Notes under the pieces: model-generated | Database searches by the model: none | What the model saw: only the letters and a program-made list of their open reading frames with translations | Told to the model about the DNA's origin: nothing | Shown: in pieces, positions 3,105 to 9,804 of the stretch | How the letters are laid out: each line of letters starts with the position of its first letter | Numbering within the stretch: the stretch's first letter is position 1 | Program-made: the position numbers and the translations under genes | Origin: a virus | IMG/VR virus record: IMGVR_UViG_3300042908_001241 | Location: 1-36,568 of that record | DNA length: 36,568 bases | Reading direction: 5' to 3' (one strand)

Positions 3105-3117
3105 TGCTTTTTAATCT

Positions 3118-3145
3118 GTAAGAAAAACGCATACATATTTCTTAC
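3118..3145 (+). other. 8-bp hairpin directly in front of the methyltransferase SD
   Basis: GTAAGAAA (3118-3125) pairs perfectly with TTTCTTAC (3138-3145), leaving a 12-base loop. The SD AAGGAGG starts at the next base (3146). No T-run follows, so it is not a terminator. The position suggests an mRNA-stability or ribosome-access element for the methyltransferase gene. Confidence 0.55.
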
Positions 3146-3156
3146 AAGGAGGTTTG

Positions 3157-6265: not shown

Positions 6266-6269
6266 AAAC

Positions 6270-6416
6270 ATGAATACTGATGATTCCTATACAATTGTGT
6301 TCACAAATGAAATGCTTAAGTCTATCGGTATAGACACAGATCAAAATGATATTGATGTAAAAATAGTAATAGAAAATGGAACTATTAAAGTTTTGAGAAA
6401 AGAAAATGTTGTTTGA
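6270..6416 (+). CDS. Small protein with a weak AbrB/MazE-like look, 48 aa
   Basis: A 48-residue ORF that fits between two neighbours with a 4-base gap upstream. The segment MLKSIGIDTDQNDIDVKIVI followed by ENGTIKVLRK recalls one SpoVT/AbrB swapped-hairpin half (index: LGI, DVxV, ENGxIxV). The similarity is weak and no toxin partner is adjacent, so an antitoxin role is not supported. Codon use resembles the neighbours. Confidence 0.5.
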   Translation: MNTDDSYTIVFTNEMLKSIGIDTDQNDIDVKIVIENGTIKVLRKENVV

Positions 6417-6525
6417 CAACTATGTTTGTGCCTTTTTTCAGTATGTATGTTATGCAACAGTATATTTACTTATCATCAAACTAATAAAAGAAATATTAAA
6501 TGAGGATTCTGATAAATTTTTTTGA
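6406..6525 (+). CDS. Putative single-TM small membrane protein, 39 aa
   Basis: The ATG lies within the last codons of the previous ORF (11-base overlap). The product has one hydrophobic helix (about residues 7-26, Tyr/Cys/Phe/Val-rich) followed by KLIKEILNEDSD, a charged cytoplasmic-type tail. No SD is obvious, so expression would depend on coupling. Tiny TM proteins are common in phages, but this one could be a chance ORF. Confidence 0.4.
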   Translation: MLFDNYVCAFFQYVCYATVYLLIIKLIKEILNEDSDKFF

Positions 6526-6579
6526 GTGTTGAACGAATAACAATATGTGTAAGGAATACATAACCCAAGGAGAAAAGAT

Positions 6580-6867
6580 ATGATGATTTACGATTGGCTT
6601 TTTGGTAAGGAAAAAAAGAAGAATTGTGGTGGTTGCAAGCTAAAGCAACAAGAAAAATCAATAGAACAATTTGTTTCTGAGCTTAACTTGTTAAAAGCTA
6701 AATTTAACGATCTAGAGTTAGATTATATTGAGTTAGAAAATATTAATGCATCACTAAGTTCTTCTAATGAGGAACTAAAAACTAAAAATAACGAACTAAT
6801 ATCTGTACTGTTAAAAGTATCTGATATAGCAAGAGTTAGTGTTGAGTGTAATAAAAAAGGATATTAA
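6580..6867 (+). CDS. Coiled-coil protein with N-terminal CGGC, 95 aa
   Basis: 95 residues from an ATG 7 bases behind AAGGAG. It starts with a hydrophobic MMIYDWLFG segment, then KNCGGCKLK (a CxxC pair), then a long heptad-rich coiled coil (about residues 27-75) of Glu/Leu/Asn. No known family. It sits upstream of the RNA fold at 6874 and csrA, transcribed in the same direction. Confidence 0.65.
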   Translation: MMIYDWLFGKEKKKNCGGCKLKQQEKSIEQFVSELNLLKAKFNDLELDYIELENINASLSSSNEELKTKNNELISVLLKVSDIARVSVECNKKGY

Positions 6868-6873
6868 CTGAAA

Positions 6874-6943
6874 TTATAAGGTGTCTGGACTAATGACGGT
6901 GGGAAAGGTCTTACTAGTTGTGTTGACTAGAGACACCTTATAA
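6874..6943 (+). ncRNA. Compact three-way-junction RNA in front of csrA (class unknown)
   Basis: Arms 6874-6886 and 6931-6943 are perfect 13-bp inverted repeats (core AAGGTGTCT / AGACACCTT). They enclose 44 bases that can form GGAC/GTCT (6887-6890 with 6908-6911) and CTAGT/ACTAG (6914-6918 with 6926-6930, 7-base loop), that is, a three-way junction. The loop of the second stem holds an unpaired purine-rich GGTGGGAAAG. The SD of csrA (AGGAGG, 6951-6956) follows 7 bases after the fold, and no T-run follows. It may be a cis-regulatory leader or a small RNA. A GGA at 6887-6889 is a potential CsrA contact. It does not match hammerhead, purine, preQ1 or glutamine riboswitch cores that I could test by eye. 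Confidence 0.6.
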
Positions 6944-6963
6944 TAAACTTAGGAGGAATTAAT

Positions 6964-7194
6964 ATGGAAATTGGAAGTTTGGTTTTTGCTAGAAAGTTGA
7001 ATGAAGCTTTTACTATTTATACCGATTCTGGTGATATAGAGGTTACCATTAAAGAAATAAATACATCTTCAAATCAAGTTAGACTGCGTGTTAGAGCACC
7101 AAAAAACATTAAAATCATGCGAGATAATGCAGTTGATTTAAAACCAAAAGATATATTGTTCACACCAACAATTCCAAGATCGGAGAAAAGATGA
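6964..7194 (+). CDS. csrA: CsrA/RsmA-family translational regulator
   Basis: 76 residues, close to the 55-75 of bacterial CsrA. The N-terminal strand is SLVFARKLNEAF where CsrA has LILTRRxGE, so Arg10/Lys11 stand for the RNA-contacting Arg6/Arg7. The hallmark NQVRLRVRAPKNIKIMRD (about 37-54) aligns with NQVRIGVxAPKxVxVHRE, including the Arg equivalent to Arg44. CsrA dimers bind GGA motifs in hairpin loops near SD sites and repress or stabilise mRNAs. This copy therefore could control phage or host mRNAs. It is coupled by ATGA to the DUF1501 gene and sits behind a strong hairpin, suggesting autoregulation (inference). Confidence 0.88.
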   Translation: MEIGSLVFARKLNEAFTIYTDSGDIEVTIKEINTSSNQVRLRVRAPKNIKIMRDNAVDLKPKDILFTPTIPRSEKR

Positions 7195-8468
7195 ACAGAA
7201 GACATTTTATAAAACATACGGCTGGAATTTCCGCACTTTCTTTTGTGGATAAAGTTAAGGCACAAGAAGAAACACTTAAAAAGTCTGGAAAAAAGCTTAT
7301 TGTATTGTGGATGGGGGGTGGTCCTAGCCATATGGACCTTTGGGATTTAAAGCAGGGTCAAGCAAATGGCGGTGAATTTAAACAAATACTTACTTCAGCG
7401 AATGGAATTAGTATTAGTGAAGTTCTTCCAACAATCGCTTCTCAGTTTCACAATTTAGTTGCTGTTCGATCTCTTGTGACTAACGAAGGAAGTCATGAGA
7501 GAGGAACCGTTTTAATGAATACTGGGCATCAACCAAGCGTTGTTGTGCAGTATCCATCCATTGGATCGGTAACATCTTCGCTTTTAACATCAAAAGAACT
7601 ACCCTTACCAGGATTTATTGGTATTGGAAATTCAGCACAAAGAATTGGGCCAGGATTTTTAGGAACAAACCTTGCACCATTCACCGTTCAAAATGCTGGA
7701 ACTCCACCAGAGAATATTAAAGCACCAAAGGAAATAGATGATGAAGAAAGACTTAGACGAAGACAAAGACTGTTTTATACATTGGAAGACGATTTTTCGG
7801 AAAGAATTGCACCTCACATTAAAAATAGTGTGGCTAGAGAAGCTATGGGCAATCATGCTCAATCTCATTCTAATATCTATGGCAAAGCCTTTGATCTTAC
7901 ATTATCTCCGCTAAAAACAATCTTTGAACTAAAAGACGAAAATCCTAAAACGATTGAGTCTTATGGTGGTAGAGGAAATAACTTTGGAATGGGTTGTCTT
8001 CTTGCTAGAAAGTTAATTTCTAAGGGGGTTAGCTGTGTACAAATCGACCTGGGTGGATGGGATAATCATAGCAATATCTTTACTACTATTAGGAATGGGA
8101 ATGGGAATCGTCTTGATATGGGCATGGGATATCTGGTCAAGGACTTGGTAGATATGGGTATGTGGAAAGACACCGTAGTTATGTGGATGGGAGAGTTTGG
8201 TCGTACACCTAAGATTAATCAGAACGCTGGTCGTGATCATTGGGCTAGATGTTGGTCTGTGGTTCTTGGGGGTGGTACTATCAAAGGTGGACAGGTTTAT
8301 GGTTCTACAACCTCTGATGGCATGGACATTAAAGACAAGCCTTGCAGCATTTCAGATGTTTATGCTACAGTGTACAAAGCTTTGGGTTTAGACCCAATGT
8401 TTCAAATTAGGGATAATTTAGGGCGACCAATACCTATATCAGAAGGAAAACCGTTAGATATATTTTGA
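7191..8468 (+). CDS. DUF1501-family protein (sulfatase/alkaline-phosphatase-like fold) with Tat-like leader
   Basis: 425 residues. It begins with a twin-arginine-type leader (MNRRHFIKHTAGISALSF), then the DUF1501 hallmarks: WMGGGPSHMDLWD (40-52), the GSHERG segment (100-105), DLGGWDNHSNIF (286-297), GEFGRTPKI (334-342), GRDHW (347-351) and a C-terminal LGRPIPISEGKP. DUF1501 proteins have a sulfatase/phosphatase-like metal-hydrolase fold, are probably exported, and are greatly expanded in Planctomycetes. The enzymatic role is not established. It looks full length and undamaged. Finding one in a phage-like operon with csrA (4-base overlap) is unusual and is the strongest hint of a planctomycete host. 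Confidence 0.92.
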   Translation: MNRRHFIKHTAGISALSFVDKVKAQEETLKKSGKKLIVLWMGGGPSHMDLWDLKQGQANGGEFKQILTSANGISISEVLPTIASQFHNLVAVRSLVTNEGSHERGTVLMNTGHQPSVVVQYPSIGSVTSSLLTSKELPLPGFIGIGNSAQRIGPGFLGTNLAPFTVQNAGTPPENIKAPKEIDDEERLRRRQRLFYTLEDDFSERIAPHIKNSVAREAMGNHAQSHSNIYGKAFDLTLSPLKTIFELKDENPKTIESYGGRGNNFGMGCLLARKLISKGVSCVQIDLGGWDNHSNIFTTIRNGNGNRLDMGMGYLVKDLVDMGMWKDTVVMWMGEFGRTPKINQNAGRDHWARCWSVVLGGGTIKGGQVYGSTTSDGMDIKDKPCSISDVYATVYKALGLDPMFQIRDNLGRPIPISEGKPLDIF

Positions 8469-9503: not shown

Positions 9504-9746
9504 ATGTTTAGTTTTGTTTTGGGTATCGCTTGTGCTGCGAGTGTTGAGTCCATTGACATTATTAAGATTCGTGGTGGATCTTCTTGCTCAAATGGATCGT
9601 GTTCTGGATCTGTTTTTACAGAAGCAACTAAATCTTCTAAGGTTGAAGTTGTTAAAAAACAGGAAGTTGCAACTAAATCTTGCAATCAGAACACAGCTTG
9701 TGCCAAGAAATCAAAATTTAAGATTTTTAAAAAGGCATGTCGTTAA
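9504..9746 (+). CDS. Small Cys-containing basic protein, possibly exported
   Basis: 80 residues from the ATG at 9504, 6 bases behind AGGAGG. A longer overlapping frame (9463-9789) has no SD and runs into the terminator, so I rejected it. The N-terminus (FSFVLGIACAAS) is a short hydrophobic stretch that may be an export signal. The rest has GGSSCSNGSCSGS, six Cys in all, and a Lys-rich tail (KKSKFKIFKKACR). No family recognised. A strong terminator follows 10 bases after the stop, so this is the last gene of its transcript. Confidence 0.7.
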   Translation: MFSFVLGIACAASVESIDIIKIRGGSSCSNGSCSGSVFTEATKSSKVEVVKKQEVATKSCNQNTACAKKSKFKIFKKACR

Positions 9747-9756
9747 AAATAAATGT

Positions 9757-9782
9757 AAAAGGGGGGCTTTTGCCCCCTTTTT
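9757..9782 (+). terminator. Strong intrinsic terminator
   Basis: GGGGGC (9762-9767) and GCCCCC (9772-9777) form a 6-bp G/C stem around a TTTT loop, flanked by AAAA upstream and TTTTT downstream (9778-9782). It can be extended by A-T pairs. Because of the A/T flanks it can act on both strands, but the plus-strand T-run and the stop codon at 9746 favour the plus strand. It separates the csrA/DUF1501 region from the next group of genes. Confidence 0.92.
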
Positions 9783-9804
9783 ATATTGAAATGGATAGTA
9801 AAAA

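Follow-up and report, generated by a model that had tools for sequence, protein, structure and literature searches.

What fills the gap between an upstream open reading frame (ORF) and the csrA gene of this phage, and does it control the gene that follows? Some phages are known to carry csrA; one survey recorded the gene in 30 of 2517 phage genomes (PMC7366521). In the literature we found no report on how phages control their own copies. The window analyzed here, i.e. the whole stretch of DNA under study, is an IMG/VR virus record of 36,568 bases; the features of the csrA locus given below lie on its plus strand.

The csrA locus and the fold of the intercistronic element

The csrA gene (positions 6964–7194, 76 aa) was identified by its match to PF02599 (E = 7.9e-10, above the curated cut-off). 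A profile match to solved CsrA/RsmE proteins was also obtained (best E 2.5e-6), and the residues aligned with the APK...R segment of CsrA are retained in the phage protein. AlphaFold gave a poor model of the monomer, with a mean pLDDT of 69.7, from which a structure search yielded nothing informative. The Shine-Dalgarno (SD) sequence of the gene, AGGAGG (6951–6956), contains GGA, is unpaired in the model of the leader and has a conserved spacing; both the start of csrA and the position of its SD agree with the preliminary description of this locus. The upstream ORF (95 aa, 6580–6867) ends with a stop codon 5 nt 5' of the element.

The start of the downstream gene, encoding a DUF1501 protein (7191–8468; PF07394, E 2.7e-91), overlaps the end of csrA, and this csrA-DUF1501 synteny is the same in relatives. 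The nearest relatives of the phage DUF1501 protein are Planctomycetota proteins (65–71% identity), and no csrA-like ORF was found adjoining the DUF1501 gene in those relatives. The phage gene was probably acquired from a host, and, because its closest relatives are Planctomycetota, planctomycete bacteria are the likely hosts of these phages. In each of two IMG/VR contigs (3300024509_000007 and 3300024358_000009), about 150 kb separates two distinct csrA-DUF1501 loci; such a record represents either one phage with both loci or a fusion of two phages. Further downstream in the window, after an ORF ending at 9746, a strong stem resembling an intrinsic terminator was observed (AAAAGGGGGGC TTTT GCCCCCCTTTTT, 9747–9804).

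The gap between the upstream ORF and csrA is filled by a three-way junction closed by a perfect inverted repeat, whose arms (P1; ATTATAAGGTGTCT at 6873–6886 and AGACACCTTATAAT at 6931–6944) are separated by 44 nt. The preliminary description had reported this repeat and its 44-nt interior correctly; the length of the arms is 14 bp instead of 13 bp. The pairs of P1 are kept in relatives and recur in the consensus fold. In the 36.6-kb window this is the longest perfectly complementary, non-overlapping inverted repeat within 150 nt. The folding energy of the 70 nt is -24.6 kcal/mol (z = -4.28), and none of 200 dinucleotide shuffles folded as well. Similarly, when each of four leaders, that of the window among them, was shuffled 5000 times, no shuffle reached the observed score of a three-way-junction descriptor.

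Within the junction, stem P2 is formed by GGACT (6887–6891) and GGTCT (6907–6911), and encloses a 15-nt loop (AATGACGGTGGGAAA, 6892–6906) with a conserved GGTGGGA at 6898–6904. It is followed by the P3 hairpin CTAGTT-GTGTT-GACTAG (6914–6930). Of the two interior stems proposed in the preliminary description, P3 was retained, and P2 (drawn there as TAATGAC/GTCTTA with the loop GGTGGGAAAG) was replaced by the pairing found in relatives. For the window sequence, the minimum free energy fold and the consensus lie 1.9 kcal/mol apart, and single-sequence energy models leave the interior unsettled; this part of the fold therefore rests on comparison. The 5' arm of P2 is assigned from the consensus of six sequence types, in which its last pair covaries, and it also covaries with the more distant relatives described below; the 3' arm is assigned from the consensus fold and the joint alignment. 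A candidate 16-codon ORF (MTVGKVLLVVLTRDTL, 6893–6943) overlaps the element.

Conservation of the element in related phages

A search of IMG/VR with the csrA query yielded 15 loci, and the DUF1501 query added further phages, in which DUF1501 is 72–73% identical and CsrA approximately 40% identical to that of the window. All 27 related phage csrA loci obtained from IMG/VR carry a structural counterpart directly upstream of the gene, so the fold passed the test by which the preliminary description could have been refuted. The sequences form two groups: clade A, which contains the window, and clade B, comprising other, more distant phages. The latter contributed three members to a set of nine P2-bearing types, two of them located at csrA of distant phages.

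RNAalifold analysis of the six clade A types gave a P1 of 14 bp, a P2 of GGACY/RGUCU, a UA joint and a P3 of CUAGUU-GUGUU-GACUAG, with no broken pairs and one double-changed pair in each helix. In clade B, P1 is GGGCGGU/ACCGCCC, and the stems of P2 and P3 differ from those of clade A; the loops are GGUGGGA in P2 (GGCAGGGA in a copy preceding a methyltransferase gene, see below) and UUGUU in P3. Within this clade all three copies, two at csrA and one at the methyltransferase gene, have the P1 pairs in common, and P2 and P3 differ with the pairing kept.

Across the nine P2-bearing types (types L009 and L010, which have lost P2, were excluded from the count), 205 of 206 pair cells hold standard pairs and 34 cells are double-changed, the double-sided changes falling in 14 of the 25 pairs. 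None of 20,000 strand permutations reached the observed pairing, although this permutation ignores the relatedness of the sequences. Since MAFFT could not align clade B with clade A, the joint pair counts come from a manual alignment that leans towards structure; the pair statistics thus constitute strong, but not independent, support for the fold. The clade B copies obtained covariance-model scores of 17.9, 15.7 and 9.8 bits, and an unrelated hairpin scored 15.5. The bit scores alone are not decisive, and the putative homology of these copies rests on fold, loops and synteny.

The single-sided changes observed in clade A convert A-U or G-C pairs into G·U on the csrA-sense strand, and would leave A·C mismatches on the antisense strand. 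Because all of them are G·U-compatible on the sense strand, they point to RNA of that strand, rather than DNA, as the conserved molecule. On this comparative evidence, the element is a new structured RNA family of phages, absent from Rfam, with a real fold kept by matching mutations.

Searches beyond these phages were largely negative. The Rfam covariance models gave no match at gathering thresholds, and with E up to 10 only eukaryotic miRNA and snoRNA models were returned, far below their own thresholds. Among GenBank phages, similar DNA was limited to short, weak matches at chance level, located at the far end of the query (E about 5), and the phage csrA protein query found no match. An exact 20-mer of P2/J23/P3, searched across all IMG/VR, recovered only the already known csrA contigs. 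A pattern search with the P1 of clade B found the csrA and methyltransferase sites, and twice matched GC-rich coding DNA of prophage-like character by chance. No match was detected in 9 of 9 and in 293 of 294 planctomycete genomes (strict filters were used over 40 genomes, and weak copies could escape them), and the single weak hit does not fit the fold. Genomes related to one Planctomycetota MAG gave 1 to 11 csrA matches each; the csrA loci fetched from planctomycete relatives showed no such fold, and no such element was present at seven csrA genes of other phages.

Variable and invariant parts of the element

Every type has P1 and a P3 hairpin capped by a [GU][UC]GUU loop. P2 with its GGUGGGA loop has been lost in two lineages (L009 and L010/L011), which keep P1, a GUGUU-capped P3 and an intact csrA. 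The stack of P1 and P3 survives this loss; it comprises 20 bp in the window and, with a P1 of only 7–8 bp, about 13 bp in clade B. GGTGGGA was found in eight of the nine P2-bearing types, counting the GGCAGGGA loop, and is GGTGGGC in the remaining type, L015; GGGA is present in the same eight types and GGGC in L015. In every type listed, a GGA lies 8–15 nt 5' of the start codon used, where an ordinary SD supplies GGA too.

The placement of the element is equally constant. It is intercistronic in all types and starts 3–8 nt after the upstream stop codon, and the distance from the end of P1 to the start codon is 16–20 nt (for L009, 19 nt counted to the first ATG, or 22 from a later codon), i.e. 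P1 ends just outside the footprint of the initiating ribosome. The region 6266–7250 contains no terminator-like site (a G+C-rich stem followed by a T run) and no recognizable promoter on the csrA strand. Reading the element as an intrinsic terminator was therefore dropped.

A second three-way junction of the same design was detected in one clade B phage (L159:909–977), before a gene for a DNA-cytosine methyltransferase. The methyltransferase gene of clade A is preceded by an unrelated 9-bp hairpin abutting the SD (TGTAAGAAA...TTTCTTACA, window positions 3117–3146), the stem of which is unchanged across the clade A relatives compared. Two other sites were noted during the scans. At L159:4715–4795 the descriptor matched a stretch that precedes another ORF and contains a hairpin capped by GTGTT; this stretch is AT-rich, has no counterpart seen in the window and is probably a chance match. 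A site picked up by the inverted-repeat scan (L201:11578–11653) resembles a tRNA gene.

Possible functions and known counterparts

The element most probably acts in cis on the downstream gene. We favor a cis element because it has a fixed position adjoining the ribosome site, its conservation is that of the sense strand, and neither a terminator nor a recognizable promoter was found; the same position in all 27 loci, the compensatory changes and the fixed spacing to the start codon uphold the preliminary description on this point. The explanation that we consider best, and by a modest degree probable, is a cis-acting structured RNA within a polycistronic phage mRNA, setting the output of csrA and, in one related phage, of a DNA methyltransferase. 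It would act on translation initiation and on how fast the downstream segment of the mRNA decays.

As to how, a dimer of the phage CsrA might grip the GGGA of the P2 loop and reach the GGA in the SD, so that the ribosome would be excluded and csrA would limit itself, as CsrA limits glgC in Escherichia coli; P1 and P3 would then provide a scaffold or a second contact site. Among specific mechanisms we place such autoregulation, with CsrA spanning the P2 loop and the SD, first, although only tentatively since the data partly contradict it. L009 and L010/L011 have an intact csrA but neither P2 nor its loop, and GGGC replaces GGGA in L015. SELEX has shown that CsrA prefers an ANGGA core in small loops (PMC7652899), whereas the csrA copies have UGGGA in loops of at least 13 nt, AGGGA being present only in the methyltransferase copy; the preferred combination is thus not seen at the csrA copies. 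Moreover, the conserved GGUGGG block exceeds the needs of a CsrA site, and the copy preceding the methyltransferase gene would require a wider regulon. Of the cis repression by CsrA suggested earlier, the cis action is supported; for CsrA as the ligand, the GGGA of eight of the nine P2-bearing types is set against the loss of P2, the GGGC loop and the methyltransferase copy. It is conceivable, with a rather low probability, that phages reuse this element as a control module through which one RNA-binding regulator, perhaps the phage CsrA, governs both csrA and a DNA methyltransferase gene. If so, planctomycete phages would possess a small Csr regulon of their own, with its own RNA code.

The same observations bear on other readings. 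The element could be an mRNA processing or stability element, a hairpin cut by RNase III or shielding a processed 5' end, by which csrA is uncoupled from the upstream gene. We regard this as possible but doubtful: its intercistronic position in every type and the survival of the P1+P3 stack after P2 loss are in keeping with it, and the unrelated stem abutting the SD of the clade A methyltransferase gene suggests that a stem at such a site may matter, but an RNase III site needs neither the conserved loop letters (GGUGGGA and [GU][UC]GUU) nor a third arm, and the P1 of clade B is short for it. Somewhat less plausible is a site for another phage or host protein, read mainly through the universal P3 hairpin and its loop. 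Besides P1, only these recur throughout, even in the methyltransferase copy and the types devoid of P2; however, there is no candidate protein, and a purely structural role would explain the retention of P1 and P3 equally simply.

Translation of the 16-codon ORF, reshaping the fold or coupling it to csrA, is improbable. The ORF is kept in the P2-bearing clade A types, five of nine substitutions fall at third codon positions, the indels of L015 sum to 3 nt, and CsrA control through a short upstream ORF has a precedent in iraD (PMC5574718), but the third-position excess is weak and overlaps the pairing constraints, the P2-less types lack the ORF, and the short ORFs of clade B are unrelated and in other frames. 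The other readings of the preliminary description, a free small RNA titrating CsrA or a small ribozyme or aptamer, have in their favor a compact fold with a purine-rich loop. There is a single exposed GGA loop, the csrA strand has no recognizable promoter or terminator, only 3–8 nt separate the upstream stop codon from P1, and the Rfam searches returned nothing beyond miRNA/snoRNA noise, all of which makes either a self-cleaving ribozyme, a known aptamer or a free small RNA highly improbable.

The cis-acting RNA favored here is a compact family found in a single place, with good comparative support, associated with csrA and, in one instance, with a methyltransferase gene. Since the leader is only about 100 nt long, self-regulation by phage CsrA is open to direct experiment in E. 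coli.

Several known systems share parts of this design. In phage T7, RNase III sites form stable stems between genes, and the element likewise fills a gap between phage genes with a stable stem, but has in addition conserved loop sequences and a third arm. With sponge RNAs of the CsrB/RsmZ type it shares a GGA-containing loop; these RNAs are independently transcribed and have many GGA hairpins and their own terminator, whereas the element exposes one such loop, lacks a promoter and terminator and is fixed upstream of csrA. The iraD leader of E. coli, in which CsrA acts via a short upstream ORF (PMC5574718), is similar in that a short ORF overlaps the leader structure, although here neither clade B nor the P2-less types conserve the ORF, and the model leaves the csrA SD unpaired. 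In the glgC leader of E. coli, a GGA hairpin loop just 5' of the SD is bridged to it by a CsrA dimer (PMC7652899). The element differs from this leader in that it is intercistronic, forms a three-way junction closed by 14 bp, and has a larger loop with UGGGA, a predicted CsrA site and a P2 that some relatives have lost. It resembles the leader in that, in eight of the nine P2-bearing types, one GGA is displayed by a hairpin 5' of the SD, and in that another GGA lies within the SD itself.
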